64,000 bases of DNA, taken from assembly GCA_014871385.1 (NCBI GenBank), contig CM026426.1, forward strand, positions 110,394,457 through 110,458,456. Reading direction: 5' to 3'. The notes under the pieces are model-generated. The model made no database searches and was not told the DNA's origin. It worked only from the letters and a program-made list of their open reading frames with translations. A program made the translations under genes and the position numbers. Origin of the DNA: Ceratodon purpureus (lineage: Eukaryota; Streptophyta; Bryopsida; Pseudoditrichales; Ditrichaceae). Shown here in pieces: positions 27,940-50,737 of the stretch; within the stretch, counting starts at the first letter, position 1, and the number at the start of each line of letters is the position of its first letter.

Positions 27940-28235
27940 GTATTCATCACGGGATCTCTCGACACCGAACTTGACCAAGATATAAGTAAATTGCGAGCGA
28001 GATATTAAAGAGCAGAGGACATTTGGGCTCCAGAGTATGTGTCACGAGATCCCCCGATAGCAAACCTGACCCAGATAATTATACGTACATTGCGAGCAAG
28101 GAACGGAAAACAGAAGAGATTTCGGCTCTACAATATTCATCACGGGATCCCCAGCACCCAACTTGACCGAGATATACATACATTGGGATTACGGTAATAC
28201 AAATGAATAGACCAGATGGGGGCACATAGGATCTC
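27940..28235. repeat. Decayed palindrome-bearing tandem repeat, about 95-bp units
   Basis: Three units start with a worn copy of the 18-bp palindrome (ATCACGGGATCTCTCGAC at 27,946; then near 28,041 and 28,139). Each is followed by a conserved tail, AACTTGACCNAGATATA and ATTGCGAGC. Spacing is 95 and 98 bp. This is the left, degraded edge of the palindrome domain. Confidence 0.65.
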
Positions 28236-28275
28236 CGATCAGAAGGAAGAGAATTATCTCAGGAAGAGAATTAAC

Positions 28276-28503
28276 TCAGACGGACTCGTCGTGGGATCTC
28301 CCGATGTCGTACCTAAACAGCACGTAGGGTCTCCGATCAGAAACATTGTCTCCCAATACATTTGCTAACGCAGATTCCATGGCTATCTTGGGAATGGTTC
28401 TACACGTCGGATCCATGATCCACGACGAAGTTGCATACACCACTGCATCAACAGTGACCAACGGAAGAGAGGAAGAGATGTGGGCTCCGAAGTACTCTAC
28501 CAT
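28276..28503 (-). pseudogene. 3'-end fragment related to the DUF7869-like gene
   Basis: The 75-codon ORF contains DPTCRTIPKIAMESALANVL. That aligns with DPSTRTIPKRSMEAALANLE at the end of the intact minus-strand gene at 32,236. It then continues into the shared 3' cassette (RRPYVLFRYDIGRS), in which a palindrome is read as DIGRS. Upstream homology is lost, so this is a truncated copy. Confidence 0.55.
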
Positions 28504-29164
28504 TCATCGGGGGATCCCGCGATGTCAGAGTAGAACCATGGATATCACATGGCAAACATACAATCAGGTACAAGGCTTGCGGCCTCAGAAGTATTTTTCA
28601 CGCAATACCCCAATATCAAACATGACCGACATATTATAATGTGAAGCAGTTTTGAAACTATTCTAGATTTGCTGCTACTAAATTTATTCCAAACCATGGA
28701 AATCTTAGAATACGAAATATACAAATATGAAAGCATCAAATGAAACTCTGTTTATTATTCAAAGCAACTCTGTTTTGAAGGCATTCCATTCAAAAACTAG
28801 TTCACAACCCACACGGGGGACACCTTCGACAAGAGATACAAAAAGATGAAAGTGATCTGTTTTTACATCTATGGTTACCAAACATCGTAGGATATAACGG
28901 TCTTGCTAACTACTTGCTAAAGTCCCCTTCCGATATCTGAGCTGATTAGCAGGAAGAAGTTAAACATGTGGAAAATGCCTGCAAGTTCAGAAGCAAAGAG
29001 GAAAACAGGATCAGATGGTATGAAGTTCAGGGATTAAACCGAGAAGTGCAGGTCTAAAGCACGGACTCATCCTCTTGACAATCACCACGAACTGAGCATC
29101 AGGCAATGGAATTCTGCGCAAGACATACAGCGAACGTAATCTATTACTATGAGAACATGAGGAG

Positions 29165-29280
29165 GGCGTTCTTTAATAGAGAATGAGGAAGTCAGGTGAC
29201 TCAGACGTAATCATCGAGGGATCTCCCGATGTCGTACCTGAACAGCATATACGATCTCCGATCAAAAAACTGTAAACATC
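29165..29280 (-). repeat. Shared 3' cassette, copy 2
   Basis: The segment contains CTTTAATAGAGAATGAGGAAG, an 18-bp palindrome (29,214-29,231), then a conserved tail ending GATCTCCGATCAAAAAACTG. Near-identical sequence recurs at 30,105-30,190, and a diverged copy is at 32,145-32,260. Each lies just downstream (minus sense) of a minus-strand ORF. Confidence 0.7.
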
Positions 29281-29281
29281 T

Positions 29282-29336
29282 GACGGGAAGGACCCATAGA
29301 CGGGAAGGACCCACAGACGGGAAGGACCCACAGACG
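29282..29336 (-). repeat. 17-bp tandem repeat, three copies
   Basis: The unit GACGGGAAGGACCCACA occurs at 29,282, 29,299 and 29,316. One more copy lies at about 35,648, inside the N-terminal coding part of the large minus-strand cluster, where it encodes SVGPSRHD. Confidence 0.8.
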
Positions 29337-29337
29337 A

Positions 29338-29868
29338 TCAGTCCTGAGCAGTAGACTTGGCTCGGACAACACTACACCCAGTATGGACGGATGGATGCAC
29401 GGATCCAAACGACGAATACGTGGACTGCGGGCTTGCGTTCCCTCCGCACCACTGATCTTGGCCAGAGCACCGACTTCCAGCACCCTCCGAGATGTCGTAA
29501 GCTTCGTCAACAAGGCGGAGCCACCCTGAAGTTGACATGGTTTGCGTTGACATTTCCCCTGTGTGGCTGAAGTGCACACTGCCAACACTCCCGGACTCCT
29601 CGGACTCCTCGGACTCCTCGGACTCCTCGAACGTCAGTGGGAAGGCGATGCCGGACGCGTCAGAGATCTCCAACAACTCAATGGTGTGAGCAATACTCCA
29701 AAACCACCGCGCACCTGGCTGCAGAAGGCGTGTGATGTATCTGAACTCTAGAATGGCGGTGTTGCGAGAACGGGCGACCACCGCCCTATACCATGGCCGG
29801 AGCTCCTCGAGGTCAGCCGGTGACTCCTGATAACCCAGTGGTCTCACATTGCTACCCCGCCTCACCAT
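29338..29868 (-). CDS. ORF of 176 aa, unknown, with EES repeat
   Basis: The ORF is intact from ATG to stop. Residues near 80-92 form EESEESEESEES, encoded by four 9-bp GGACTCCTC units at 29,592-29,628. A helical segment (DLEELRPWYRAVVARSRN) precedes it. No family is recognised. It is followed directly by the 17-bp tandem repeat and then by a shared 3' cassette, the same arrangement as the other minus-strand ORFs here. It may be a non-autonomous gene of the same repeat family or a chance ORF. Confidence 0.35.
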   Translation of the reverse strand: MVRRGSNVRPLGYQESPADLEELRPWYRAVVARSRNTAILEFRYITRLLQPGARWFWSIAHTIELLEISDASGIAFPLTFEESEESEESEESGSVGSVHFSHTGEMSTQTMSTSGWLRLVDEAYDISEGAGSRCSGQDQWCGGNASPQSTYSSFGSVHPSVHTGCSVVRAKSTAQD

Positions 29869-30104
29869 AACGACAAAATTGAATTCAATATGCGACTAAC
29901 TTCTACAGTATGCGACCTTCTTCTACAGTGGACAGCCGACGAGTTCGTCTAGTAAACTGGTAAACGTTCTAGTAATCCACTTCTCTAGGGTTTTCTGGAC
30001 GACTAATTGCCAACGTCGACCTAGTCTAGTAGCCCCTACTCCCCTACTGGGCTGGTAGCCGACTAGGACTAGCTTACTCATCATTTGCATCATTAGGACT
30101 AGGA

Positions 30105-30190
30105 CTTATTTACTCAGACGTAATCATCGAGGGATCTCCCGATGTCGTACCTAAACAGCATATAGGATCTCCGATCAAAAAACTGTAAAC
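30105..30190 (-). repeat. Shared 3' cassette, copy 3
   Basis: It carries the palindrome at 30,126-30,143 and is nearly identical to the copy at 29,204-29,276. It lies downstream of the 30,633-31,244 ORF. Confidence 0.7.
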
Positions 30191-30632
30191 AGTCTTGGTT
30201 TAGGGCGTTATTTTCTGTGCGATGTTGGTTTGTGTTTTCTGAGGAATTCATTTATTTTAATTTTGCAATCGGTCAATTACGTCCTGCCGATCCAGTGCAT
30301 TGCGATATTCACACATTCAAACCTATTTAACAAATAGGTGTAACCGTGCTCATACAACCACCATTACAGATTGAGAATTTACAATTACGAGTACTTCATG
30401 TCATCTAGTCAAAATTCTAAACCGGGCTCAATGGCAACTAAAGTCTGTGAGAATGGACTTAAACAGAATTGTCCAGAGAACGAGAACAGTAGGAATGTTT
30501 TTACACAAAATCTCCTACGTGTCCGCTGAAACATAGAACTACAAAACCTGCCTCAATGGCACCTGAAGTCTCTGACTACAACATATCCGCTACATCAGAA
30601 GTAAAATCCTCCTCGTAAGGCATCCACCACAC

Positions 30633-31244
30633 TTACAAATCCTTGCGGTTTTCTTCCATTTTCTTGAGGTTTTCTTCCATTTTGTTGATGGCGGCTTGAT
30701 ATTTGGCGAAAGAATATCCAGTCGCTTTCGGAGTTGCCATTGTCGGGGCTGGCACTGTTGGAGCTGGAGCTGCCTCTGTCTCCATTGTCCCTTCTATCTC
30801 CTTTGTCTCTTCCAGGTGCTTCATGATGGAAAGGACCTGATTCCTCATGTAGTCGGGTTGGTTCTTCTTGTTCCTTGGAGGGTGCATCACCCCAGTTGCA
30901 TTTGCAACGGCCACAAATTGCCTCAAAGCAATCGAGCTCCAAGTTCCATCCCATCCTTCACAATTCATCGCAGAAACTTTGTCATAATCAGGAACTTCAT
31001 ACTTTGTTGTCTCTTGAAATGTCTTCAGATCCTTCAGCCAATGTCGTAGGCATGGCAGGTTGAGAGGTGCATCTTTCATGAATTGAAACTCTCCACCTCT
31101 CCTTGCTGCTGAATCTCTCCAGACTGGAAGTTCTGGTTTCTCGCAATCTCCATTGAAGACCATATTCTGGACTTCCCTCTGGGAGGTTGAACCATCCTCA
31201 ATCATCATCATCTTCCCCTTCGTGACAGTCGGATCCTGTTCCAT
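30633..31244 (-). CDS. Acidic/helical protein of 203 aa, unknown
   Basis: The ORF runs from an ATG at 31,244 to a stop at 30,633. A splice acceptor (tttttttccacag in minus sense, about 31,258) lies just upstream, so this may be the second exon and the true start could be further right. Readable segments are CLRHWLKDLKTFQETTKYEVPD and RQFVAVANATGVMHPPRNKK. A Pro/Ala/Thr-rich linker follows, then a C-terminal coiled coil (KMEENLKKMEENRKDL). No catalytic domain is recognised. It sits between a DUF7869-like gene and a shared 3' cassette on the same strand. Confidence 0.5.
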   Translation of the reverse strand: MEQDPTVTKGKMMMIEDGSTSQREVQNMVFNGDCEKPELPVWRDSAARRGGEFQFMKDAPLNLPCLRHWLKDLKTFQETTKYEVPDYDKVSAMNCEGWDGTWSSIALRQFVAVANATGVMHPPRNKKNQPDYMRNQVLSIMKHLEETKEIEGTMETEAAPAPTVPAPTMATPKATGYSFAKYQAAINKMEENLKKMEENRKDL

Positions 31245-32144
31245 ACCTGGGAACTGTGGAAAAAAAAATTCAAGAGAAAAAGATTAGAAAATTCTAGACC
31301 CACATGAAGTTCATAAAACCAGATCCGAAAGAACCAATAACCACAACACACTTCAAAGAAACTAAAAAACTGATGACAAGATATGTTATCTCGAACCCTT
31401 CATCTCAAACCCTTCAACTGAAACACATGATGTATATGAATGTAAATCCACCTCCAGAGCCCTAAACCCTGAACCCTAAACAGCAAATCCTTTTTTCTAC
31501 AAGTTCATCGCAGCACTTAGCCAAATTTCCACCTCAACAAAAGTACTCGATCGACAAATGCAACAACATATAGTGGGATCAGGCTGTCCACATTGTATGT
31601 CCATATGTATTAGGAAAACGACGACTCCAGTGGACCAAAACCTAATTACATGCCCCCCGTATCTGCTCAAACTAATACACCAGCTAATCTCAATGACTCG
31701 TGTTGCTAATTGCTCAAGAACCCAACAGAGTCGATACGCAACACAACCAAAAACGCAAAGAAGAGAATTTCAAGTAAAAACTAAAGTCGATTGGCCATGG
31801 CCCCTGCATGTGTGCATTGCTCTCACCTGCTCGGGAACTTGCGTTGCTTTCTACTGCAGCTGCCAAAGTCGCTCCTGAACAGAACGCCCGGAGTTCAAGT
31901 TTATCGACACCAAATGAACTGGGCGTATGAATCTGCAGTTTCTCTCCTTCCCCCCTTGTTCTGAAAGCTTCTACTTCCTTCCTCCAGTTTCCCACTACTC
32001 CATCTGCTTCCACTACCAGTCTCCACGTTGCGCAGTCATGATCGTCATGGTTCTTAAAGTGTCACAAATCTCAGAAACAAACATCATTGAGACGAGGAAG
32101 GATGATATTGCACGGGGATGAGAAACGGTCAAGCAGTGATGACT
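31245..32144. other. Intergenic/upstream DNA of the minus-strand ORF
   Basis: No clear gene is seen. A telomere-like word cluster (CCCTAAACCCTGAACCCTAAAC) is at about 31,460-31,482. Minus ORF 31,714-32,013 lacks supporting features and may overlap the promoter or 5' UTR of the 203-aa ORF. Confidence 0.4.
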
Positions 32145-32260
32145 CTTATTTCTTTAATAGAGAATGAGGAAGACAGGTGACTCAGATGTAATCATCGAGG
32201 GATGACCGTCTGTCGTGCCTAAGTGGCATAGAGGATCATGGATCAACTACGTTAGCTCTC
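32145..32260 (-). repeat. Shared 3' cassette, diverged copy
   Basis: It shares CTTTAATAGAGAATGAGGAAG and CAGGTGACTCAGA with the copy at 29,170. The palindrome is partly lost (ATCGAGGGATGACCGTCT). It overlaps the 3' end of the DUF7869-like CDS. Confidence 0.55.
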
Positions 32261-35024
32261 TCTAAGTTTGCTAAAGCAGCCTCCATAGATCTCTTAGGAA
32301 TGGTTCTAGTAGACGGGTCCTTGATTTTTGACCAATTTTGAAACAGAGCTGCACCAACAGAGACCCACTCCGGAGCACGCGTCTCTACTACCCACTTAGC
32401 AGACCAACAGTTACGGTATTTCAATGCAAGGTCTCTTTCCGCGCTACGAGGTTCCCAAAACTGAATTAAAAATTTCCCATGGTTTACATGGCCTTCCTCT
32501 CTGCATACAGCAGTCGCTGCTCTTCCCTGCCATACAGGACAAATGAGTGGATCTTCAGGTCTCAAAAGAACCCAGCTGCCAGGCCGAATATCACGCCACG
32601 GATTGAAAGGACTCTCCGGAGCTTGGTTTGCTGGGCCACAATACGCTTCTGGTTCCTCATCCTCAGGAGTCACATCCTCCAGTAGAAATTGTAAAAATCT
32701 ATGGCGCGGTACTCCGTTGGATACGTCCCTCCAGTCATGGCGGGGCCAGAAACCCTCTAACAATTCAGGATTTGTCACTAGCAAAGGCTTATCAAGCTCA
32801 GACAACAAACGAGTCCAGTAGTCAACATAAGGCCCAAACGCTGCTGCAAATCCCTCGCATTTTGCCATTCCATTTTTCCAGTACTCAATGTACTTTTGGA
32901 GTCCGCACTTCATGAATTTCTTGTTCTCAGTAGCTTTGGCTGCGGTCTCTCTCGCCTTCACCTGATTCCCAGTAGATTTAGGAACCTCACTTCCCCACAT
33001 AGGTTTGAACGGAACCGGCTTCGGTGAGCCGTGAGGAAGTTTTGGGCCGCCATCCATGTTTTCATTCCACAATCGAATAGGGGGTCTGTTGAGGGGTAGC
33101 CATTGTGGGTCGACGGCTGACTTCTTGTACCTCATAACCGGCCAACCATCATCGTCCACATAGAACTTGAAAAGGTGCATCTCTCCAAGTCCAATCAGGC
33201 GGGCTGCACCACTACTTTGATAGCCTTTGATGAAAGACTTGAAGTCTGCAACCTCTTGAATGAACTCCGGCATGAATGACAACTCCTGGGACTGCATGAA
33301 GGCCTTCATTAGATCCGCTAGAACGAACGTATTCTTGCTTTTTAATGCCTTCGACAAATGGCTAAAATAAGCGTCAATATCTTCGTGCGTATGACCCACT
33401 AGTAGAAATCCAGCCTGAATTTCCTTGAAAACACCCCGTGCAGTCAGCAGGGAGAGAAACGCCATGAGATATTGGTTCTTGTTATCTTTGGCGGAGTTAT
33501 CCACTTGAAGGTATAACTTCCTCGGTAAAGGTTTCGACCCTGGGACATCGGGGGATCCCTCGATACGCGGTAAAATGTCGAGGCACCTAGACTTCCCCCT
33601 CAACAATGTCTCGAACAGTGAGTTTTGCGGGGGGTACTCAAATAGTTTCCCAGACTCCCGAAATGAGGGGCCTTCCAGTCGACGGAACAGCCTCGCCAAC
33701 GACGATATTGTGGCGTTAGAATCTCCTGGCCAACATTGAGGACAGTAATGTGCATAGGCGCCATCCCCGTGCCCATGAGAAACCATACCAGTGACGTTCA
33801 TGGGAAGTTGGCCCAAACCTTGAGTAGCCTTTGTTGTAACACGCATCCGGGGAAGGGCGGTTTTTGCAGTATCCATCTTGTCATGAATGATGCACAGAAT
33901 CTCGCTGGGATTGCGCTTTGATTCTTCGCGCCATGCACCATACAGACGACGACAAGAGGCTTGGTGAGCAAGATGCTCCTCCCGTTGCTTCACGAAGTCA
34001 ACATATTCTGGACTTCCGTTGGCTGACTTCAGAATGAATTCTTGAAGTTGGTCACATGTTGAGCATTTCGCAAAAGAACTTCCAACCGGTTTGATTGCGA
34101 TATTGTTGAAGAGTGAACTTCTAATTCTACTAATTGTAGACTGGCTCACTGTAGGCAGACCTAATGAAACATTTGTCTGCAAAGCACCGGTACGTTCAAA
34201 TGGCTGGTGAGGAAAAGAAAGCGACGCACGCAAGCAAACAAGCTCGAAGTATTAGACGACAAATTCAGACAAATCACCTAAGACGAGAAAAAGAGTTCTA
34301 TATTTCATGACGTAGGTAGAGTGCAACGATTCTATAAGACAGAGAACTGACTGTCAATACAAAAGTAACCTCTATCGGGAGATCTCCCGATGCAATGACA
34401 CTGCAAGAAACGCGAAGCAAGGACTCATACCTCATTGGCGTCAGCCATCACCCGCTTCCAGTTGTTGCCTGCTGGAAGATATTTCAGAGTGTCCACTCGT
34501 CCATTTCCGATTCCTCGCATTTGATGGGGCATCTGATCTGCATTCTCGTCTACAATAGCAGCAATAGTACCCATGACTTGAACTGTTCCGATCCTCGGTC
34601 GCTTGTAGCCCTTGTTTCCATGCGCTGTTGATAGAACCCCTTCGTTGTATCGTTGGACATAGCTATGAAAAGTTGACTTGGGAACTCCGTGAATAAGATA
34701 CCACGCAGTTGCGCAAACTTCCGAACCATGCAGCGTCAAGTACTTCCTCCTACGGTTACCGTCGACTGAATGCATCTGTCCACCCGCCGCAATCCCGTAT
34801 TCCCGTCTTCCCTGAAAGGATTTCGAATAGAATTTCTTACGCACTATTAGCGTGAGCTCCTGGGGAAATGTCTGACAGCAATGCTTCGAGCAGCATCGTT
34901 CGGAGCTAACCTTCCTCACTTCCGCATCCGCTGTCTTCGTATTGTACAGCAAACGTTTTTCATGCGTTTTAGGTTTCCGCACTATAAACCGGTAAGGTGC
35001 CTTCCGTCTGCCTCCAAGGTGCTC
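32236..35024 (-). CDS. DUF7869-like, DDE-type transposase-derived protein (two exons)
   Basis: Exons are 35024-34431 and 34176-32236, joined phase 0 to phase 0 across a 254-bp intron. Exon 1 has a Cys-rich N-terminus (CCSKHCCQ) and the helical segment GSEVCATAWYLIHGV. Exon 2 begins at TNVSLGLPT, then KCSTCDQL. It carries the family's conserved acidic sites: IHDKMDTAKTALP (about 33,880), LQVDNSAKDNKNQ (about 33,490) and VGHTHEDIDAYF (about 33,380), consistent with an RNase H-like D-D-D/E active site. The C-terminal half includes a small domain (RPGSWVLLRPEDP). Such genes in plants and animals are thought to derive from transposases; function unknown. The open frame begins right after an in-frame TAG (35,027-35,025). 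Upstream of that stop the same frame is open to 35,705, so the gene may be nonsense-mutated, or this may be a separate gene with an undetected start. The intron carries a perfect copy of the 18-bp palindrome. Confidence 0.65.
34374..34391. repeat. Perfect 18-bp palindrome in intron
   Basis: ATCGGGAGATCTCCCGAT is a perfect palindrome, the centre of the dispersed family. It lies inside the intron of the DUF7869-like gene. Confidence 0.9.
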
Positions 35025-35705
35025 CTATGGATCTACCTCCATTGGGATTCGGGAGAAGTGCTCTACTGTTGACCGAAGAGAAGGGCCGTTCGGGAATTTG
35101 CATTCAGATATCAACCAACGCTCATTACTCATTATGGCATCAGTGTCCCCGACAAAGACGTCGAGGATTGTCACTCCAATGTATCCCTCGCCCAATCTTC
35201 CGTCTCGGAAATACTCCTCCGGTTCTGAGCAGAACACTCTACCGGAGGCTATAACCGCACCCGCAAGGTCCACTTTCTGAACTTCCAAACCAATCCAGGA
35301 TTGTTGACGAACGTATTCAACATCGTTCGTGGGAGGATCCTGCAACAATGCAGTCGCATCACCAGCTCTCCAGAGGACTGTTCGATTCAAAGCATCCCTC
35401 AAAACGATGCAGCCTCTCTGGCGTGGTTCGAGGAAGAGGTCCTCTGCGTCCGACACGATGCTTGATGGTCGCACAAGAATAAATTCTGAAGAGCCAGGTG
35501 GAATGCAAACCCCAAGCCACTGCCCAGAAGGATTAACGTCGACAACAGATCCGATTCCAACATCTCCGAAACGGGGAACGACAAGCTTCACAGACTGCCC
35601 GGGTCGAAGCTCATCTGAGCGAGCAGTTGATTCCTGAGAGAAGTCGTGACGGGAAGGACCCACAGACGGCATCTGGGGACCGTCACTGTTACTCTCAGAG
35701 TCCAT
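35025..35705 (-). CDS. ORF of 226 aa, in frame with the DUF7869-like gene
   Basis: The ORF runs from ATG 35,705 to TAG 35,025. It contains beta-rich segments (LRPGQSVKLVVPRFGDVGIG, GCIVLRDALNRTVLWRAGD, EGYIGVTILDVFVGD) that look like small SH3- or Tudor-like folds, with no exact family. Its reading frame continues after the TAG straight into the DUF7869-like exon (GGRRKAPYRFIVRKPK), so it is probably the N-terminal part of the same protein interrupted by one nonsense codon. A donor-like GAG|gtagat lies just before the stop, but no acceptor in the right phase was found nearby. The ATG lies 22 bp from the palindrome array. Confidence 0.5.
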   Translation of the reverse strand: MDSESNSDGPQMPSVGPSRHDFSQESTARSDELRPGQSVKLVVPRFGDVGIGSVVDVNPSGQWLGVCIPPGSSEFILVRPSSIVSDAEDLFLEPRQRGCIVLRDALNRTVLWRAGDATALLQDPPTNDVEYVRQQSWIGLEVQKVDLAGAVIASGRVFCSEPEEYFRDGRLGEGYIGVTILDVFVGDTDAIMSNERWLISECKFPNGPSLRSTVEHFSRIPMEVDP

Positions 35706-35726
35706 TTTCACGAGAGCCAAAGAAGT

Positions 35727-36120
35727 ATCGGGGGATCTCTCGATGCGGGTCTAAATTCTATTGGATCGAGGGATCTCCCGATGAGGGTCTAAATTCGATA
35801 GGATCGGGGGATCTCCCGATGAGGATCTCCAATGAAGTATCGAGGGATCTCTCGATTATGGTCTACATCCTTTAGGATCGGGGGATCTCCCGATGGGGGT
35901 CTCTCGATGAGGATCTCCAAAGAAGTATCGGGGGATCTCTCGATGAGGGTCTAACTTCTATAGGATCGGGGGATCTCCCGATGGGGGTCTCTCGATGAGG
36001 ATCTCAAAAGAAGTATCGGGGGATCTCCCGATGAGGGTCTAACTTCTATAGGATCGGGGGATCTCCCGATGAGTGTCTCTCGATTATGATCTCCAAAGCA
36101 GCATCGAGGGATCTCCCGAT
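35727..36120. repeat. Array of eleven-site type: 18-bp palindromes at 38/50-bp spacing
   Basis: Copies start at 35727, 35765, 35803, 35839, 35877, 35927, 35965, 36015, 36053 and 36103, with further half-sites (GGGTCTCTCGATGAGG) in the 50-bp intervals. Intervals are 38, 38, 36, 38, 50, 38, 50, 38 and 50 bp. Linkers repeat too (AGGGTCTAACTTCTATAGG, AGGATCTCCAAAGAAGT), so this is a tandem array with an 88-bp higher-order unit, not a CRISPR. Confidence 0.9.
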
Positions 36121-36475
36121 GAGTGTAGTTGGGTCCACGAAGAAGCAGCCTCCACCTCGCCACCCCCTGTCCGTACAGTGAGATTCCTGTCCGTACAGAA
36201 TAATTTCTACAACAACACGGAAATCACATAAGTGCAGTTCATTCCACCAATATGCAACATGCAAGGGTTGATCTTAACTAGAAATTCCCCGATACCTTTG
36301 CAAATTCTACATAATCCGCGGAGAACTACATGAACAATTCTACTTACAATAGGGGATTCCGCGATGGATCACATGATCAGCACATGTAACGTGTACAGGA
36401 GATAGAACACACCATTCAAGAGCAATGAAATAAACCCGATTGACAAAAGATTTTCCAAGGAAAGACCGAGATCAT

Positions 36476-36934
36476 ACCTGCGCTCCCTGCGAATGTAATC
36501 GGCCGCTCTAAACACCCGAGCAGATGCTCCCTCCGCCTCCTCGAATGATTCTCCGGCACCTCAATCCCATCCTCAGTCCCCCGCAACCCTCTAATCTCAG
36601 GTTCTACCACCAGTCCAAGGTTCTACAACCCGTCTACGACATGCTATGTTGCAAGAAACTGGTACTCTGAAACGCGCTAATGAAACAACTCTGAGGAGAC
36701 TGCTCTGAACTGATGTGAATGAATCAGGAGATGGCGGTCCAGCAGAGAAATCAAACGGAGAATCCCCGCCAATTCAGAAGGGGGAAACAAGATCGAGCCC
36801 TTCAGGTTTGAATTTGAAGGGAACATACATGTCATGATGCATAAACCATCCAGCAGTACTTTCGTGAGGGTGGTTTCCATTTCATGATGCAGCGAATCTC
36901 GATCTGTCCCCCCTACTTCTGTAGGAGTGTCCAT
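36476..36934 (-). CDS. Possible 5' exons of a minus-strand gene, unknown
   Basis: An ATG at 36,934 opens an 85-codon frame ending 36,677 (contains SELAGILRLISLLDRHLL). A second open segment, from about 36,622 to 36,476, follows an acceptor-like GGGTTGTAG and ends at a strong donor (GCGCAG|gtatga). It contains an Arg-rich run (HSRRRREHLLGC). The junction between the two could not be set with confidence, nor could the join to the ORF at 35,705. A TATA box at 36,997-36,990 supports transcription start just upstream of 36,934. Confidence 0.35.
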
Positions 36935-36989
36935 ATCATCACCTGGTCCACTACTGTACTATAGTCGCTCTCTACGAAGGACCAAGATG

Positions 36990-36997
36990 TATTTATA
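36990..36997 (-). promoter_or_regulatory. TATA box for the minus-strand gene
   Basis: The minus strand reads TATAAATA 56 bp upstream of ATG 36,934. Telomere-type AAACCCTA words, which act as telo-boxes in some plant promoters, lie 140-240 bp further upstream. Confidence 0.4.
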
Positions 36998-37130
36998 TGT
37001 CTAGATCTGTTACGTAGATAGCCACACCAGGGCATGATTTATTAGAGTCACGTACCACGACCTTTAAGCCACGTTTCTGTTCCCACACTTTTCATGGGAG
37101 TGCTGGCGTAATAGGCCATTTCTGAGTTCA

Positions 37131-37230
37131 AGCTTGAGGGTTCAGGGTTCAGGGTTTCAGGGTTCAGGGTTTCAGGGTTCAGGGTTTCAGGGATCAGGGT
37201 TTAAGGGTTACGGTTTAGGGTTTAGGGTTT
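37131..37230 (+). repeat. Degenerate telomere-like tract
   Basis: GGGTTCAGGGTTTCAGGG alternates here in tandem and drifts into GGTTTAGGGTTTAGGGTTT at 37,209-37,231, the plant telomere repeat. It directly borders the satellite array. Confidence 0.8.
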
Positions 37231-37254
37231 CTCTATTTTAGAGTTTTCGAGGTC

Positions 37255-40790: not shown

Positions 40791-41551
40791 ACGGCGTCGC
40801 TCGAGTGTTTTTCCGCTCTACCTCGCTTTGGCGCCACCTTCCTGTAGGTCGCTCCTCTCCCGCGAGTGTCTGCTTCGCTTTCCACAACATTTCCTGTAGG
40901 TCGTCGTGATTGCGTCGGTGTCGAGTTGCGAGGGAGGTTTAGGGCAATTGAGAGGTGCTTCGCAGCTTCAGGGTGCTTAATTCGTGGTCGGGAGGTTTAG
41001 GGCGAGATTCGAGGTGTTTGGTAGGCGAGTGAGAGGTTTCTTTTAGGTCGCATTTGAGAGGTCTGAGTTTGGGAGGTGCACTAAGCGAGATCGAGGGAGA
41101 GCTTTTGGATCGGGGGGCGGACGAGTGGTTTTTCAGATCGTCGGAGCGTGCGTTGAGAAAGAAGACGAAGCAGCGGACGAGTGGTTTTTCACCTGCGAGT
41201 GCATTCACAGGTACTTTTTTTTCTACATTCTTAATCGAATCGGGTCTGTTTCCCGTGCAATGTGGCAATTTTTTACCTTCATTGGTTCTGTTGCTGCAAA
41301 ATGTTGTAGATAGTATGTTCCGCCCAGTGGATTCTATTCCGCCGGATGAGGGCGACGGGTCTGTAGACGTCGTTCAAGTGCATGAAACTCTCGTCAATTT
41401 AAATTCTATAGTAGCCTCTGTCCTCCATGACTTCAGTATTGTGCATGCTTCGACATTGCTCGACCAAGGGCTTATTTGTCATTCTCAATCTTAATCGAAA
41501 ATTTGTCATCCCGTGCATCGTGCCATCGCCGTGCAGAGTTTGCAGGCAGCT
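40791..41551 (+). promoter_or_regulatory. GC-rich promoter and 5' UTR of the ParB/NIF gene
   Basis: Base composition changes sharply from AT-rich to GC/CpG-rich at about 40,790. The words GAGGTTTAGGGC (40,934; 40,992) resemble telo-boxes. A possible 5' UTR intron has donor CACAG|gtactt at about 41,210 and an acceptor GCCGTGCAG near 41,535, just ahead of the ATG at 41,552. The exact transcription start is not visible. Confidence 0.4.
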
Positions 41552-44500
41552 ATGGCAGGGAGTTCATCTAGAGGGCCCGGGACCGCAAGAATCTGGGAGG
41601 ACCCGTAAGTTTTTTTCTTAATCTCAAATTCTGTGCTTAGTGACATTTTTCCTTTATCACATCTCGAAATGCCTACGTCCCAGTCCGGCTTAAAAATCAG
41701 CTCCACCTCTTATATACTGTAAACACTAAGGTTTGAACATAAACTGTACGGAACTGAAAACATCTTCCAACAAAATAAACTGTACGGACACTGTAAATAA
41801 CTTCAGTGATATCCGTTGATGCGATAATAATGTCTTTGGTCCATCGGGGGATCTCTCGATGCGTCAGTATCCCTTTCCACTCTTCCGGAACGGCTTGCCA
41901 TCGGGGGATCTCCCGATGACCACTCTGCACATAACCTTGGTCCATCGGGGGATCTCTCGATGCGTCAGTATCCCTTTCCACTCTCTCGGAACGGCATGCC
42001 ATCGGGGGATCTCCCGATGACCAATTTCACTTGAAATTACCATTGATGCATCACTATCCCCTTACCAGTCTGTGGGGACGGCAAGCCATCGGGGGATCTC
42101 CCGATGACCACTCTGCACATGTCCTTGGTCCATCGGGGGATCTCCCGATGTCTTCGAATCCCCTTCCCATCCTGTGGGTATGGCAGAACATCGGGGGATC
42201 TCTCGATGACCCACTCAGTACAAACCATATTAATAAAACATAAACTTATAACCAGGTAAGCTCACCGAGGACAATGAACTGTATGGACAGCGCTATTTTG
42301 ATTAGGTGTCATAACGTTGGTCCATCGGGGGATCCCTCGATGTGTTGGTATCCCAGCCTGACCCCGTAGGTATGGCAGAACATCGGGGGATCTCCCGATG
42401 ACCTTAGTGCCCTTTCGTGCCTCTGATATTCTCAATGGTACTGTGAGATAATTGTTTCTACAAATGTTAACTGATTTGGAGCAGGGATTTGACCAACAGT
42501 GATGTATGTCTGTTCTGCAGGAATGAACAGATAATGGAGCCACCATTGGACTTCAAGCCCGTTAAGCTGTACCCCTTTGTCGATCAGTGGATCCATAGCT
42601 ACAATCACGTCGGAGAATCAAATCCGTGCGCAGTTTACCGCTGCGATAAGAACGTCACTGAATGGGCCATGTCGTGGAAGGATACGGCAGGAGGCATGGC
42701 CGTCATTGTCCCCCATCTCACCTGTGACGGGCGGATCCATTCCCCGATTGGATTGAACGTTCTCGAACTGAAGGGCCTTGATGTGGGGACAGCTATCATG
42801 GTGGTGGAGGAGAAGATGCCGAAGTCCGATCGGACTGTAACTTATGGACTGATCCTCGACCTCGGCAAGCTCAGCCTGAATCAGTGTGCATCCCTCACTG
42901 CCAAGGGCTTGATGTACCTGCCGGAGGATAAGGCGAAGTGGACTCCGGCACAAATTGAAAACCAGTGGAACCTAATTGACGAGGCGCGAAGTGAGGTTGA
43001 AGCTGCTGCTCCTGTTCCATCGAAGACTCCGACTGCGACTACTCCTACGAAGACGCGGGGCACAAAAAGGAAATCTTCCTTGATCAATGACGGGGAAACT
43101 GCGGTGCCGGACACAGGGAAGGGCAAGAAGGGAAAGGGTGATGACAAGCTCACTCTACAGCAGTGTGTGACAATGTCAGCTTCGGATATTGAGAAGCTGG
43201 ACAAGACCAAGCAGACGGAGATGAAGAACCTGTACAGCGAGGCGTTTGAACCACTGTACAAGTGGGGCCACGAGAGGCTCAAGGATGAGAATGATGCGCC
43301 AATAACTGTGCACTTCTCAAAGCTGCACAGGGCCCCTCCAGGTTCAATCGTCTACCGAGGACTTGTTCCGGACAGGCTAAAAGCCTTGACGAACCAGGAG
43401 CGCATCGCTCCGAGGTACAGTGGAACAGATAGAGAAATCACTGTACTTCCACTGAAGAAGGGACCTTATGGACCGGATAAAAAAGTAGAGTTTTTCAGTA
43501 AACCTCCGGAGAAGAATCAGATCAACAGCTCCACTCCATTCTTCATCATTGGGGGCCAGCATACGGTTCAGTGTTACCGAGATCTCGTTGAGAGTGGGGA
43601 AATTGCTGGGGCTGACAAAGACAAGGCGTCTAAGTTCTCAATCATCCCAGTGTGGGCACCCAAGCCTGAGCACATCAAGCTCATGCTCCTCTCACGGGTC
43701 TTGAACCAGGATATGGCCGGGCCACAGAAGGAGCACACATTCATGATGCAGGTGCTCCACGCCAGAATCAAGTGGAAAGAGTTGAAGTGCCCGATGCCAG
43801 CCTTACAGGGACGGCAGCACCCTATAGAGTTTCTGGTAAGTCTGTATTCCCCTCCTCATCGAGAGATCCCCCGATGATCTTAGTTGTATATCTGTATATA
43901 TGTATCAAAGTCATCGAGATATCCCCCGATGATCCGAGTTGTAGAAATGTCCGTGGCCCCTTAGAGTATTCCTCGTACTTCCCATCATCGGGCGATCCCC
44001 CGATGACAACTTCCTGTGTCGGAGAGCTCTACTAACCCTCCCCCGACGTGTGGTACGCAGCAATTCACTCAAGCTCTGGCATCGATCTTCACAAACGTGA
44101 AGGAATCAGAGCTAAGGGACTGCAAGATACCGCTACTGTTTCTTGAAGACGATACGGCGGTTGACCGGTGGGTGGAGATTGAGAAACAGTACATGAAGGG
44201 GAAGCTCCCAGATGCGCAAGGGAATGTGCAGACGAACTATGACCTCAAGCGGAAGCCATTTGTCCAGAACGATTTGAAACCACTATACGGCCTGCGCTCA
44301 GAGGATATCCATCACCTTGCTGACCTCGTGGAGAAGAAAGAAATATCTGTGAAGGGATCGAAGGCCACCAAAGGTGATAAAGTGGCGAGATTACCGTCCC
44401 TTCAAACAGCAGGGAATAGGGAAAGACTGATCAGATGTATGAAGAACGAGTTGATGAACACCTATATGGGTTGGGAGCTTCCAAGCCGTAAGAGCACATA

Positions 44501-47500
44501 CGTAATGTATCCTGCACATGAATGGGACGAGTTTGCCGACCTGAAGAACATCACTCGCGCGGAGCTGGAGAGCTGGCTCGATAAGGCGTATGCAACGGCT
44601 TCGGGGAAGAAGTGGCTGGACGACCGAAACAGGAACCTCAACAAGACCTGTGATCCTGCGGACGTGCCTGACTTCGTTAAGGTGATGTGGGACGCTCACA
44701 ACATGGTACAAGAGCAAGCAAGTCACTTATCGCACATCCAGAAGGGGTTCGATCAGAAGTACAAGTGCGTGCTTACGGACCGGAGTAGGCCCGAGATTTC
44801 TGTTATTTTGCGAAGTGAAGAAGTGTATAGTTGGAGAGGAGGGGCAAAACCACACATATTCATGTACTTCGGGTTTGATGCGATCGCTGACATGCCAGTG
44901 AAAGCTCAGGTGCTACAGGAGAACGTCCTGTCTCGGATATTCGATCCTCTATTGGGGCAGGAACTTAACAGCACGCAGGTCTTTGTTCGCTCAGGAGCAG
45001 TTGTCTTCACAGATGCGGCGGGATTCCATGCGACACTACTGCACATCGATACGCGCACGAGGACAGCGAAGAGGAGGTTGTGGAACTGGCATGTCGTCCA
45101 CTACGTCCCTTCCCGCGAGGACGGATTTCCCGAACCGGAGCTGGGTTCTTCATACGTTGTCTACATGATTTTCTGCTTCGCTTATTCGCCAACGCAGTCT
45201 CCGAAGGAATGCTTCGGGGATTTCTTTGCGGGCAAGAGGCCATTCGACGCAGTGTACCTGGCCAAAGACATTACGGAAACCATCCAGCAATGGAGACGAC
45301 CTGGTCGACCAACGATTAAGGTGGCCGCCCTTTCTACTATCTTTCAGCAGCACATTAAAGATAACATGGTGCTCGTAAACGTCAACGGCGGGGCTCACTT
45401 CACCCTCCTTGGACTTGTAAGTACTCTGTCTGCACCCTCCGAATGTTGAAGTCATATTAGATATTTCTCTTTCACTCACTCGAATGCTTCCACTTTAGTT
45501 CATACTTGTGCGAATACACTGTTGTTCTTGAGGCTTATTATGCAGATGTCCTCCACTTATAGTACTCACGATATATGCACTCGTTCACTCACGTATATAG
45601 AATCTAAGTCAGAAGTCCTTCTCTGTTCTCAGCCTCAGTGTTTTCGGATATGTCCTCACGGATACAAGATTTATCGGGGGATCCCTCGATGGACGGATAA
45701 CGTCTTAAAAGTCTAGGCTTAAGGGGTTCTCAAATCATCGAGGGATCCCCCGATAAATCATGCACTTCTGTCCACATTTCCCGGCACCTCTGATCCCTTA
45801 CGCAATGAAATTGAAAGTGACATTTGGTTACAGTCTGCTGTTCGCATTTTATACATGTTCTTATCGCCTGCATGTCTACAGGAAAACGAAGCCATGGTCC
45901 TCGAAGTTGTCTTCTGTGACGATGATGAGAAACACGCGAAGAAGACGTCGAAGCAGATATGGGACATACTTTACAAGGAGGGAGTTGACCCAGATGAATT
46001 GGTAAACGATGATGCTGGTGACGATGGTGATGATGAGGCAGGCGGCGGAGAGGGTGATAATGAAGATGGTGTGCCTGCTGATGAAGATGCCCGCGAGCAA
46101 TCGCCGCCTGGTGATTCCGAATCCAACTCTGACGAGGAGGAGACGGCTTGCACCTCGGTAGGTTCTTGAGCTTAGGCAGGCTTCCCTAATTTGGGTTTCC
46201 ATGTTGTTTTATCAAGTGGCGAAATCTAGCATGATTACTACCCTCGTGTAGGGGTTCTGTAAGAAACTGTACCATTCTGTAAGCATCATAAATTGCATAC
46301 CATTATGGAAAATGAGGAATTTATATTTCTGGAAAACGCTATTCCTCATCCGACCAATTATTTCATTCCATGTAACATCCCCCTCACGACTAAATTCCCT
46401 ACTCTTGTGAGCAAGGCACCTCTCTTTTGTTTGCTTAGCACTGCACCTCGGGTTAACTTCCAAGGCATTGTAGTATTCCTGTACCATATACTCGAACCCA
46501 ATTTCTACTCCACTGCAGCTTTTCTTACCGCTAATGGTGACCTGCGCTCATATTGCAGGGACTGCTGAACTCCGCGCGCGTTTATGGTGGAGCTGCGTCG
46601 AGGGATCACACCGTTGACGATTCTCACGTGGGGGAGTCCTTGACGCCACGAAGCGATGTTGCCACCGTGTCGGGAAACACGAAGGACGTAGCTCGGTCGC
46701 TGCTGGATATGAGGATATTACCTGTGGATCACCAGACTCAGACTACGGAACCTGAAGGTGGCGCAGAAGACGTGGGAGAGGGTGCTTACGGGCTGGATGA
46801 CTTGGACTTTAATGTCCAGAACTTCGCTGCGGTTCCGCGAATGAATGAATCCGCACCAGCAGGAGAGGAGGACGCGGGAGTTCACAGGGATTCGGAGGGG
46901 ACGGATAGGGATGCTGTGGACCCGGGAAGGATTTCTCCTCCTCAAGAGCAGGAGACGGAGGGAGGAGTAGCTGATAGTCAGCATGAACCGTGCATCCCAC
47001 CATCGGGAGATATCCCGATGACAGAAGGCAGTGCACCAATTCCAAACCAACACCCCCCCGTACCTGAGGAGTGCGGTCCTCAGAGTTCGCTGTCCGTCAC
47101 TCCTTATGTGATCCCTTGCAGCCCCCCGCCTCCTCTCCCATCCAGCCCCCCGCCTCCTCTCCCACGGATTACATCTCCCGGGGAGACTCATCAGTCTCCC
47201 CCCGTGGCTCCTGACATGAACGAAGATGTTGTTGACGACACTCTGAAGGATTTAGACGCGTTCAGCCCGGAGAAGACGTCGTGCGACGCGGAAGCCCCGG
47301 TGTTCGACGATGTGAAGGCATGTGACGAGGTCAAAGACAACGACGCGGAAGTGGAGGAGCTAAACTCGGATTTATATGAAGGGCTCCCAGACAACGCACC
47401 TACGGAGGTATCCACTGAGGTAGATCTAGTCGAGGTGGAGAAATCTAAGGACACAGATCGTGAATGTCGCTCACTTGTGCTGGAGAAGCGTTTGCAACGA

Positions 47501-48899
47501 TCCCTTCCGCCGGAACTTCCGTCGGGAACAACATCCGGTCCCCCGGCCACACGAGGAAAGGGTAAGTCTGGGCCTAGCACCGGAACGGGGGTCAAGGGGA
47601 AGGGAAAAGGTTCCGGTGCTGAGAGAGAGCCTAAGGGAAAAAGCACTCCAGCAGGAGCTCGTGCTAGTCTGGACGAACAGGTAAGGGATCACATATCCCA
47701 GCGAGGGAATTACACCCCACCCTCTGGCAAGGCTAAGCATCTTGAAGCAGTTAGACAGGCTCACGAGTTCGTTTACAAGGACTATAATGATAAAATCCCA
47801 TTTACTAATGACTTTGAAAAAAAACCTTTACCAGATTCCGACGTCTAAAACGGTTGGCATTTCATCGGAAGCCGAAGATCCGAATTTGGACGACAGTGCG
47901 AAAGGTATCTAGTCGGACTCTAATTGTAGGACTGATAGTTCTAATGTCCTCAGATTGGGCATTTGTAGAACGTGTAGTGTCTCCTGTAGATGCTTGAGGA
48001 ATTCAGTAAACATGTGCATCGAGGGATCTCCCGATGCTTGGATCTACTATGACATTTTTTCAGTGGACATCTATATCGAGGGATCTCCCGATGCTGAATG
48101 TTGATCACACCTGTTCACAGTAGACATCTATATCGAGGGATCTCCCGATGCTCAATGTTGATCACACTTCTTTACAGTGGACATCTTTATCGAGGGATCT
48201 CCCGATGCTAAATTCTGATGAGATTTTTTTTGGTTGCATTTTCCAGGGCCCCCTCTCCCATCCTCCGTTCCAGCAAAGGTGATCGGAAAGGTACCCGGTC
48301 GAAGGTATTCGGTTGTACTAGACTTAAACGGGGTTCTCGTTCACCGTGGGATTTTTGTCAAGGGAAAAAAGCGCCCTATAATGCTCAGACCTGGATGCCA
48401 GGAATTCCTGAACTGGCTTCATACTCAGGCAACGGTAGCCTTTTGGACCAGCATCGCGCCTAGGAATATACCTGAAACTCTTCCTGTTGTTCTTCAGGGC
48501 ACCTCCTTACAGCTGCCAGATGTGCAGGTTCTTAGCCAGAACGAATGCACACGTTCGTCATACGTGGAGTCGTCAAAACCAGACAAGCCGTTCTTTCTAA
48601 AGGATCTCCGTGTCTTACCTAAGTTCCTGGTATTGGAGTCCGTTGAGAAAGTCCTACTAGTGGATGATAGTCCACAGAAGAACCTTCTCAACGACCCTCA
48701 TAACGCTGTCCACCCCCCAACCTGGTCCGGGGATGGTGCTGATAGGTTTCTTACGATGACACTGAAACCGTGGCTGGAGGGTCTATTCAGCTCAGGGGAA
48801 GCTGTCCCAGAGTATGTGAAACGGGCCCCGCTTCCGTTCGGTCAGTTCCCCATGGACCGGTCGTCGGACTTGGCACTGAAGATATTGAGGGCGGTGTAG
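41552..48899 (+). CDS. ParB-like and FCP1/NIF-phosphatase fusion protein (7 exons, 1614 aa)
   Basis: Exons are 41552-41604, 42521-43835, 44061-45416, 45882-46157, 46559-47680, 47835-47904 and 48247-48899. Every junction has GT-AG ends and matching phase, and the frame is open throughout. Residues of about 325-440 resemble a ParB/sulfiredoxin-like fold, with FFIIGGQHT (G362-T366) followed by LLSRVLNQD, like the GxRR and ExN boxes of ParB. Exon 3 is a large unassigned domain ending GGAHFTLLGL. Exon 4 is Asp/Glu-rich. Exon 5 is disordered with Pro- and Lys/Gly-rich runs. Exon 7 is an FCP1/NIF domain: D1423-L-N-G-V, where plant relatives also show Asn at the second acidic site, and VDDSPQKN at D1537-D1538. 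The predicted nucleophile is kept. FCP1/NIF proteins dephosphorylate Ser in nuclear proteins; the N-terminal role is unknown. Four of six introns and one exon carry the 18-bp palindrome. I know of no standard gene with this fusion. Confidence 0.75.
41843..42399. repeat. Nine 18-bp palindromes in intron 1 of the ParB/NIF gene
   Basis: Starts are 41843, 41900, 41944, 42001, 42088, 42132, 42190, 42324 and 42382. Intervals of 57 and 44 bp alternate, giving a 101-bp composite unit. Linkers repeat (GCGTCAGTATCCCTTTCC; GGAACGGCTTGCC). Confidence 0.9.
43858..44004. repeat. Three palindromes in intron 2
   Basis: Copies are at 43858-43875, 43913-43930 and 43987-44004. They are in the ATCGAGAGATCCCCCGAT orientation, reverse to those of intron 1. 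Confidence 0.85.
45673..45754. repeat. Two palindromes in intron 3
   Basis: Copies are at 45673-45690 (ATCGGGGGATCCCTCGAT) and 45737-45754 (ATCGAGGGATCCCCCGAT). Both centre on GGATCC. Confidence 0.85.
47002..47019 (+). repeat. Palindrome within coding exon 5
   Basis: ATCGGGAGATATCCCGAT lies in frame and is read as part of PSGDIPM. The centre differs from other copies (GATATC) but both arms are intact. Confidence 0.8.
48018..48206. repeat. Four palindromes at exact 57-bp period in intron 6
   Basis: Identical ATCGAGGGATCTCCCGAT copies start at 48018, 48075, 48132 and 48189. The linkers (AATGTTGATCACAC and CAGTGGACATCTATAT) repeat as well, so this is a recent 57-bp tandem array. Confidence 0.95.
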
Positions 48900-48900
48900 C

Positions 48901-49102
48901 TTAGTACAAATGACTCTGGATTTTGGAACACTCATTTTATTCACAGTTCTTTATTGTCAATACATACATTCTCTCACATGACCATGTAATGAAGCGAAGA
49001 TTGTAGTTTAGTGCAAATGACTTTGGATTATGGAACACTCATTTTATTCAGAGTTCTTCATTGTCAACACATACATTCTCTCACATGACCATGTAATGAA
49101 GC
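48901..49102 (+). repeat. Tandem duplication in the 3' UTR, 107-bp period
   Basis: The segment starting TTAGTACAAATGACT at 48,901 recurs at 49,008 as TTAGTGCAAATGACT. Both end in TCACATGACCATGTAATGAA, with about ten differences. It starts two bases after the stop codon of the ParB/NIF gene. Confidence 0.9.
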
Positions 49103-49301
49103 TGTAGCTCCCTCATGTTTGATAGCAGAATGAAACTAACCGAGTTCCTGAAAATTTGCATTTGTCTTACTGAACGCAATGGAGTTCTGGAACTTTGAAT
49201 GGATCTTTGAATTTGTTTTGTTTTAAATTCGCTTTGCTGTGGTAATACTCTTTCAAGACATGGTCTGACCACCTCTGTGTGCCATGGCGTTGGGAGGCGC
49301 C

Positions 49302-49369
49302 ATCGAGATATCCCCCGATGAACTATGTTAGCGAATTCGTCATTTACAAACATCGGGAGATCCCTCGAT
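49302..49369. repeat. Two palindromes upstream of the second phosphatase exon
   Basis: Copies are at 49302-49319 (ATCGAGATATCCCCCGAT) and 49352-49369 (ATCGGGAGATCCCTCGAT), within sequence that would be intron if the next exon is spliced. Confidence 0.85.
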
Positions 49370-49420
49370 GTTTAGTCTCAGATGTAGAAATGTCCTGATG
49401 TTTTTATTTCAACTGTGCAG

Positions 49421-50023
49421 AAGGCGATAGTTCTCTCGGTTAATGGCGTCCTGTGCTTCGAGGATTATAAAGGATTCAGCCCGCCGTTGCTGGACTTAGG
49501 GAATGTCATTTGCCGTCCTGGAATTCGACCGTTCTTTCGAAAGCTTCTTGAAGACTTCCATGTCGGAATATGGTCATGTATGCCCCCATCCCGCTTGGAC
49601 CTTGTCTTAGCGCATCTGCTTCCACTGGAGCTTAGATCGCAGTTAATTTTTGTGTATGGTCAAGACAAGTGTGTTCGACAGAAGCCTTATCCATTCTTCC
49701 AGAAGTTCCTGCAACGACTTCGTATGGATAAAAAAACTCGCAGGTTTTGCAAACCGGGTAAAGTTCTCATGGTAGATGACTGTGAATGGAAGAATGTAAT
49801 GAATGGAAATCATTCCTGCTATTTCCCGACTCCTTGGAAGGGTGAAATGCACCTACCTAATCCGCGAAACGTCATACCAGACGTCGGCACAGCCTTACTT
49901 CCATTCATTATGGATTTGGTTCATTATGACTCCGTTACTGAGTTCCTTCAGAAAACTCCCATGGATGGGGAATTCTGTAGGAGATCACTTAGGCAATGGT
50001 ACACCAGTAGAGTAGAACAATAG
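49421..50023 (+). CDS. Second FCP1/NIF-like phosphatase exon, nucleophile missing
   Basis: A splice acceptor (aactgtgcag) precedes an open frame with no ATG of its own, ending at TAG 50,021-50,023. It encodes about 200 residues with the NIF fold order: VLSVNGVLCFED, CRPGIRPFF, FHVGIWSCM, then VLMVDDCEWKNVMN. The first catalytic Asp of DxD is replaced by Ser (S-V-N), so it is predicted to be inactive as a phosphatase. It resembles exon 7 of the upstream gene, including the VDD box. The phase-0 acceptor would fit the phase-0 donor of exon 5 (47,680), so an alternative terminal exon is possible. A separate gene or an exon-duplication relic is equally open. Its frame is uninterrupted. Confidence 0.55.
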   Translation, partial: KAIVLSVNGVLCFEDYKGFSPPLLDLGNVICRPGIRPFFRKLLEDFHVGIWSCMPPSRLDLVLAHLLPLELRSQLIFVYGQDKCVRQKPYPFFQKFLQRLRMDKKTRRFCKPGKVLMVDDCEWKNVMNGNHSCYFPTPWKGEMHLPNPRNVIPDVGTALLPFIMDLVHYDSVTEFLQKTPMDGEFCRRSLRQWYTSRVEQ

Positions 50024-50219
50024 ACTGTACATGCAGTGAGTTGGTTACAATCCAGTGGCCTTGTGTACCACGATGTATTAGTGGTAATAATATGGCACCG
50101 TCCATTCGAATGACTTTCATGACAATACCTCATATTCATGTAACTTGTTTTTGTAATGTAAATGACTATTTCACCATCATCGATCTATGTGTATTATTTG
50201 TAATGTTATATTACTTAGT

Positions 50220-50515
50220 TTGTCCATACCATTTCACTCGTGCAATTGTGAGATGGCTGTTGTTCTTCCGGAAGACACCTATAACGGGAAATCTCCTCAT
50301 CCATGGTTTTGCAAAACACACATTATTCATTACATTACTTTGTCCATACATTTGTTGCCACCGGAACAGCACTATATCGGAAGATCTCCTGATCCATGGA
50401 CTTGCAAATCATACAATGTTCTATACATTACTTAGTCCACACATTTCCCTCGTCTTGGAACAACTCTATATCGGAAGATCTCTTGATCCAATCATTCAAA
50501 TAATTCACTATTCAT
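50220..50515. repeat. Decayed palindrome-bearing tandem repeat, 92-95-bp units
   Basis: Worn palindromes (ATAACGGGAAATCTCCTCAT at 50,281; ATATCGGAAGATCTCCTGAT near 50,373; ATATCGGAAGATCTCTTGAT near 50,468) recur with shared linkers (TCCATGG, CATTACTTNGTCCA). This is the right, degraded edge of the palindrome domain. Confidence 0.7.
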
Positions 50516-50737
50516 AACAGTAGGGCATGGTTTTACTAAGCCCCTTTCATTTTCCTTTGCTTTTTCTGGACGATCCATAGTCCATAATTCAATGAATAGT
50601 CCAGAAATAGTTAAATATGGCATATGAGGTGAGATACCACGAAAAGCAATGTATCATATTGTCTCAGAAAGATCTATTGCATTTTCCATACGGTTTATTT
50701 AGGTAGAGGGAGTGAAATCATGGTTCTGCATTCGACC

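Follow-up and report, generated by a model that had tools for sequence, protein, structure and literature searches.

A short palindrome repeated through a giant DNA transposon of the moss Ceratodon purpureus: candidate family-specific binding sites for an element-encoded protein

The stretch of DNA analysed here, a 64-kb window on sequence C6 (110.5 Mb) of the Ceratodon purpureus assembly (at 110.39-110.46 Mb; called the window throughout), contains a giant DNA transposon with two main genes, one including a DUF7869 exon for a DDE-type transposase and one predicted to encode a ParB/sulfiredoxin-like protein. Repeated through the transposon, in introns and in front of genes, are copies of an 18-bp palindrome, ATCGRGRGATCYCYCGAT. 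We propose, with somewhat more confidence than doubt, that these palindromes are lineage-specific binding sites for a dimeric protein encoded by the element, which would thereby control its own chromatin or transcription. Coordinates of the features are collected in the table.

Within the window ATCGRGRGATCYCYCGAT occurs 31 times exactly, 36 times with at most one mismatch (28,506-49,369) and 43 times with at most four, and all 43 sites fall within 27,946-50,487, that is, inside the transposon. A first-pass annotation of this DNA had reported about 37 well-preserved copies between 28,506 and 49,369, none in the first 27 kb or after 51 kb, a perfect form at 34,374 and two copies in coding exons, and each of these statements agrees with our counts; the two coding copies are those at 33,547 (exact, in the DUF7869 exon) and 47,002 (one mismatch, in exon 5 of the ParB-like gene). 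The looser frame ATCGnnnGATCnnnCGAT, with up to two mismatches allowed, was found 43 times inside the element and not once in the 41.2 kb of the window outside it. The count against shuffled controls that the annotation had suggested was also run: dinucleotide-shuffled versions of the window (n=100) contained no copy of ATCGRGRGATCYCYCGAT (mean 0.00, maximum 0), and the whole assembly (362,488,568 bases in 151 contigs) contains 2,173 exact copies, compared with zero for a reversed-pattern control and a computed chance expectation below 0.1. The genomic places sampled, three clusters on C1 (among the matches listed) and the one place on C6 that has a certain rare variant, are each within or adjacent to an element copy.

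The interval in which the palindromes had been noticed (27945-50490) is approximately the interior of a single transposon flanked by terminal inverted repeats (TIRs) and 4-bp target-site duplications (TSDs). Searching the genome with a 25-mer of the TIR (up to two mismatches) returned 99 forward and 101 reverse ends, and the control none. Among the matches listed, the remaining inverted repeats of at least 20 bases in the window were limited to the palindromes, A-rich runs and a short local repeat located at about 1 kb. Neighbouring forward and reverse ends were 18-27 kb apart in 20 of 30 cases, with a median of 22.7 kb over all 30 (pairs drawn from 100 listed ends, leaving out at least three more distant pairs and one 68-kb pair). 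A perfect 4-bp TSD was present in 8 of 9 testable end pairs (ATGA, TAGA, TCTT, AGTA, TATC, TGAT, ATGT, AGTG); the ninth has one mismatch (CATC/CCTC), a tenth pair runs into Ns on one side, and the flanking sequence differed at every copy examined. An independent dispersed repeat or a miniature inverted-repeat transposable element is therefore rejected, the boundaries, TIRs and TSDs being those of the 22.8-kb element, and the idea that the 18-mer forms a new, independent family of dispersed repeats had to be given up, since the window sites and the four genomic places inspected belong in or beside copies of one giant transposon.

We call this transposon family 1. The open reading frame (ORF) of exon 3 of its ParB-like gene has 90 matches in the genome, of which 23, the window copy included, are 98-100% identical and open over at least 466 residues; the rest range down to 70% identity, many of them with stops. 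DUF7869 has 66 matches at 84-100%. Because so many exon-3 copies are nearly identical and open, family 1 has probably been active recently. The exon-3 matches are unevenly distributed, 71 of the 90 lying on C6, which makes up 30% of the assembly and which we take to be probably the V sex chromosome of C. purpureus, and 10 of the 19 elsewhere are 98-100% identical. The window copy also holds a 128-bp tandem satellite of about 16 copies (37301-39374), adjoining a degenerate AGGGTTTCAGGGTTC repeat (37137-37231).

Features of the giant transposon in the window, in order of position
Feature	Position	Strand	Details
Left TSD	27814..27817		ATGA
Giant DNA transposon, family 1	27818..50623		22,806 bp
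Left TIR	27818..27843	+	26 bp, ATGCCATATTTAACTATTTCTGGACT
Left subterminal sites	27946..28523		Degenerate at 27946, 28041 and 28288 (2-3 mismatches); near copy at 28506
18-mer in ~80-bp repeat	29213..29230		Repeat also at 30112-30191 and, degenerate, at 32150-32246
18-mer in second copy of ~80-bp repeat	30126..30143		
ORF with DUF7869 exon, DDE-type transposase	32236..34251	-	Pfam PF25273, E 4e-44; structure matches; conservation
18-mer in transposase coding sequence	33547..33564		Exact; DUF7869 exon
18-mer in predicted transposase intron	34374..34391		Perfect
N-terminal transposase exon	35025..35705	-	ATG at 35705; join to 34425-35024 approximate
Array immediately upstream of transposase ATG	35727..36120		10 exact 18-mers
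ParB-like gene model	41552..48899	+	Predicted from sequence; six exons, GT-AG borders, single open 1,551-aa frame
Exons of ParB-like gene model	41552-41604, 42521-43835, 44061-45416, 45882-46157, 46559-47561, 48247-48899	+	
Array in predicted intron 1	41843..42399		9 exact 18-mers
ParB/sulfiredoxin-like domain	43269..43721	+	Motif IIGGQHT
Sites in intron 2	43858..44004		3 sites: one exact, two with 1 mismatch
Sites in intron 3	45673..45754		2 exact
Site in coding exon 5	47002..47019		1 mismatch; same mismatched form in copies L054 and L055 (their other strand)
Sites in intron 5	48018..48206		4 exact
NIF/HAD phosphatase-like domain, exon 6	48247..48899	+	PF03031, E 8e-17
Sites ahead of second NIF-like ORF	49302..49369		2 sites
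Second NIF-like ORF	49388-50023		
Right subterminal sites	50283..50487		Degenerate, 2-4 mismatches; three copies within a 93-bp tandem repeat
Right TIR	50598..50623	-	26 bp, perfect reverse complement of left
Right TSD	50624..50627		ATGA

The DUF7869 product has an RNase H-like catalytic core with an acidic triad: its structure matches Mos1, Metnase, retroviral integrases, IstA and TnsB, and its acidic residues are D124/D127, D251 and E290/D291 in the numbering of its own translation. In the second main gene, the exon-2 domain of the predicted 1,551-aa protein has a ParB/sulfiredoxin fold. Active enzymes of the HAD type carry a DxDxT motif; the two NIF/HAD-like domains of the element (48247-48899 and 49388-50023) read DLNGV and SVNGV and are possibly inactive phosphatases kept by the element.

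The palindromes are distributed unevenly with respect to these genes. The two largest arrays mark the 5′ ends of the transposase gene and the ParB-like gene, and by the gene models the noncoding sites fall in predicted introns, in 5′ regions or in spacers, intron 4 of the ParB-like gene having none; some stand in tandem repeats. Only 2 of 36 sites are coding, against a coding share of about 43% for the whole element as estimated from its ORFs (P 7e-7 per site). The exact coding site at 33547 is present in all five usable diverged copies in the genome (copies L071 and L072 were left out), exact in two and with one or two mismatches in three. A plain six-residue insertion at this place was considered and rejected, the 84%-identical protein P0002 reading TEGIDMEGRK against IEGSPDVPGSK.

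Following a suggestion of the first-pass annotation, linkers and palindromes were compared separately. Between the window and L055, an open copy with 85% protein identity, the invariant positions of the sites in introns 2, 3 and 5 are identical at 110 of 112 positions and the linkers at 923 of 1,052 (Fisher P 0.0002); for the four purine/pyrimidine (R/Y) positions the count is 30 of 32. The corresponding figures for intron 1, where the array makes the alignment uncertain, are 105/125, 506/728 and 20/36, and for all five introns together 215/237, 1,585/1,951 and 50/68. Core identity exceeded linker identity in 12 of 12 compared copies, which are not independent of one another. The annotation would have given up its reading if the 18-mer were always part of one longer known transposon conserved equally throughout, and half of this is observed: a longer transposon does carry it, as sampled, but our literature searches found no description of this giant element, and its linkers are less conserved than the palindromes.

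A search with P0155, a distant relative of exon 2, brought up a second family of related elements, with copies at C3:4.62 Mb and C6:49.97 Mb. Its ParB-like protein is 26-28% identical to that of the window by tblastn (29-31% in the genome search), and by count it occupies 44 distinct genomic places, 8 of them full-length and open. The open copy L073 carries 17 sites of the ATCGTAGGATCCTACGAT type, 11 of them perfect. Six precede exon 2, 4 separate exon 2 from exon 3 and 7 follow exon 3, and the two matched exons of L073 are free of them. Seven further copies, all with stops (L074 at 89%; L075-L080 at 46-77% over the matched stretches), have 6-14 such sites each. The exact family-1 18-mer does not occur in L073-L080, and the TAG palindrome of family 2, with up to two mismatches, does not occur in the window or in L054-L065.

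The two palindromes share the frame ATCG-nnn-GATC-n′n′n′-CGAT and differ by changes in both halves that keep the symmetry. The inner triplet is GGG, GGA, AGG or AGA in 150 of 158 family-1 half-sites (window, L055, L064 and L065) and TAG in 32 of 34 family-2 half-sites (L073 and L074), and the flanking pair is C/G (58%/91%) in family 1 and G/C (92%/100%) in family 2. The probability that at least 7 of 9 half-site positions match in a fixed register is 0.004, so a common origin or a common recognition of the two palindromes is likely. In L073 the palindrome extends outward to G-ATCG...CGAT-CT, so that GATC occurs three times within 20 bp. A large and separate DUF7869 family, close to P0026, a protein annotated in Ceratodon, is found in dozens of places with long open frames (C1-C12, C101); none of the eight open family-2 places adjoins a listed place of this P0026-like family. 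A 99% match to P0026 was found over residues 1-349.

Could the palindromes be a non-functional by-product, spread by slippage or unequal exchange in a young transposon and simply undecayed so far? The arrays do vary between copies as units of motif plus linker, intron 2 holding two or three such units, and the 23 of 90 exon-3 matches that are nearly identical and open indicate youth. On the other hand, in an open divergent lineage the linkers have changed more than the core, loci with unrelated linkers carry the same 18-mer, and a symmetric variant stands between the same exons of the diverged family 2; we consider such a by-product unlikely, though worth keeping in view. The same observations divide the earlier suggestion that the 18-mer itself is what is kept or copied: the better preservation of the core supports the keeping, whereas the copying appears to involve motif-plus-linker units, and the intron and exon alignments that were made show no bare or clean insertion of 18 bp.

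A further alternative is that the palindromes are binding sites of the DUF7869 transposase and serve transposition, in the manner of the TNPA sites of En/Spm. In favour of this, the array of 10 adjoins the transposase gene, which has a possible helix-turn-helix segment (Psq match with E 0.098, below the family cut-off), and both ends of the element have some degenerate subterminal copies. However, the palindromes occur along all 22.8 kb of the element, with clusters in introns, the outermost 128 bp on the left and 136 bp on the right are free of sites even when four mismatches are allowed, and the outermost copies are degenerate, with 2-4 mismatches (27946, 28041 and 28288 on the left; 50283, 50376 and 50470 on the right). 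We judge a role of this kind to be unlikely.

A host DNA-binding factor might instead use the sites, for example as an enhancer or as a silencing tag, and their noncoding placement and the arrays near gene starts would suit it. From a single host factor one would not expect two element families of the same genome to carry different palindromes, and the 41 kb of the window outside the element hold no site; a host factor accordingly seems improbable.

The variation between half-sites bears on whether the palindrome acts as DNA or as RNA. Among 74 unique exact sites of family 1, pair 5/14 is A·C in 25 and pair 7/12 is G·T in 42, and no covariation of the paired positions was detected. Half-sites that vary without covarying fit two half-sites read separately by a dimer, and not a hairpin. 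The annotation had noted that the commonest form pairs fully in RNA, which is correct for that form but not for the others. That the sites are RNA hairpins, such as splicing or small-RNA structures, is highly improbable: the commonest form can make a 7-bp stem with a GATC loop, yet the full stem is available in only 12 of 33 sites in gene-sense and 15 of 33 in antisense orientation, A·C mismatches are frequent, and the two main genes lie on opposite strands.

According to the reading that we favour, lineage-specific sites for an element-encoded dimer, the 18-mer would be a cis-acting recognition site belonging to the ~22.8-kb transposon family. A two-fold symmetric protein made by the element would read each half-site, ATCGRGRGA in family 1 and ATCGTAGGA in family 2, and this family-specific binding would keep the noncoding DNA of the element open, or otherwise control its transcription, leaving the rest of the genome untouched. 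The candidate reader is the predicted 1,551-aa ParB/sulfiredoxin-like, NIF-containing protein. It is the best candidate, as a guess from association, because it is the element protein whose divergence between the families could be set against the change in the motif, and also in view of its fold relatives, ParB, Noc and KorB, which act on palindromic sites. A more specific version, possible but tentative, is a ParB/KorB-like system in a eukaryotic giant transposon, in which a dimer of the ParB/sulfiredoxin-NIF protein would load on its own palindromes, spread over the 22.8 kb, hold a distinct chromatin or transcription state and co-evolve with the palindrome between families.

Several observations weigh against this proposal. 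Linker alignment is uncertain in the introns with arrays; coding sequence is as well kept as the core, or better, in several of the 12 copies compared (core 0.868 versus coding 0.891 in L055), and across these 12 copies the four R/Y positions are about as variable as the linkers. The noncoding placement becomes marginal (P 0.058) when the 36 sites are grouped into 12 clusters, and the exclusivity of the 18-mer to the element genome-wide was sampled at four places, of 2,173 exact copies. Decay speaks for the proposal but has to be read with care. CpG transitions account for 31 of 52 motif mismatches in eight family-1 copies with stops and for 0 of 10 in three open copies, and in family 2 for 70 of 116 mismatches in seven stop-bearing copies versus 1 of 7 in the open L073. 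As the open copies are also younger, their intact CpGs may reflect age only; the pattern therefore shows the decay of dead copies and is not proof of selection.

Other points against it concern the reader and its specificity. ParB proteins bind cytidine triphosphate (CTP) through a motif of the GERR type, and the sulfiredoxin motif is GGCHR; at the CTP site the predicted moss proteins read IIGGQHT in family 1 and IIGGQHC in family 2, with no GERR-type motif found, and their GGQH appears closer to the sulfiredoxin motif. A sequence-profile search of exon 3 found no DNA-binding family. The family-1 motif appears unchanged across lineages down to about 70% protein identity, and the apparent change of specificity comes from a single comparison, between two families.

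On both sides of the transposon the window contains what are probably or possibly other mobile elements. To the left are large ORFs in which no Pfam family was found (1325-5104) and an ORF for a Ty3-type capsid (DUF4939; 11796-12305), probably parts of other mobile elements. To the right (52663-57410) are several ORFs of 190-414 amino acids, possibly another mobile gene; the four that were scanned had no Pfam family above the cut-off.

To our knowledge, the VANDALs are the one plant group in which sequence-specific self-recognition by transposons is understood in detail; these are Mutator-like elements (MULEs), whose TSDs are longer than 4 bp. The VANC motifs of Arabidopsis VANDALs are short, often tandem and concentrated in the intron, intergenic and terminal noncoding DNA of one family, and related VANDAL families differ in motif, with YAGTATTAY for VANC21 and AGTTGTCC/AGTTGTAC for VANC6 (PMC5735166, PMC10398659). 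By that description the moss palindromes are similar, being short, family-specific, often tandem, enriched in noncoding DNA (P 0.058 by cluster) and changing along with an element protein, and the related moss families likewise have different motifs, RGR and TAG palindromes. The moss element differs in its 18-bp palindrome, its 4-bp TSD, its DUF7869 transposase, its ParB/sulfiredoxin-fold candidate reader and the frame ATCG..GATC..CGAT common to the families. MULE membership was considered and rejected, because the TSD is 4 bp and Pfam recognised nothing but DUF7869 in the transposase. The moss system may thus work like VANC, with anti-silencing suggested by analogy, but we do not regard it as a member, because transposase, TSD length, motif form and candidate reader all differ.

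En/Spm is likewise a DNA transposon that carries a short site many times over, in its case the subterminal TNPA repeats; the moss sites are not confined to subterminal positions, since arrays lie deep inside (35727-36120 and 41843-42399) and introns carry sites throughout. ParB/parS and Noc/NBS are of the same type as KorB/OB, a ParB-fold protein plus its sites. Plasmid RK2, whose KorB acts on promoters from distal OB sites (PMC11790492), resembles the moss element in carrying several sites together with the gene for a ParB-fold protein. KorB binds CTP and has its own DNA-binding domain, whereas the moss protein has GGQH, no such domain recognised in exon 3, and a plant host. Sola-type elements have 4-bp TSDs and TIRs (Sola2; PMC3627910); they resemble the moss element in TSD length and TIRs and differ in length and gene content.

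If our proposal is correct, the palindromes would represent an independent case of transposon self-recognition, in a moss, in which the transposase class and the candidate reader are different ones and the code is palindromic. Because the two families allow the protein to be compared as well as the site, the change of specificity in such systems would become directly testable, and the code is unusually clean, a fixed ATCG..GATC..CGAT frame around a three-base family-specific core, which would make swaps of protein and site simple to design in reporter assays. The element also reveals a giant, apparently recently active transposon family concentrated on a probable moss sex chromosome.

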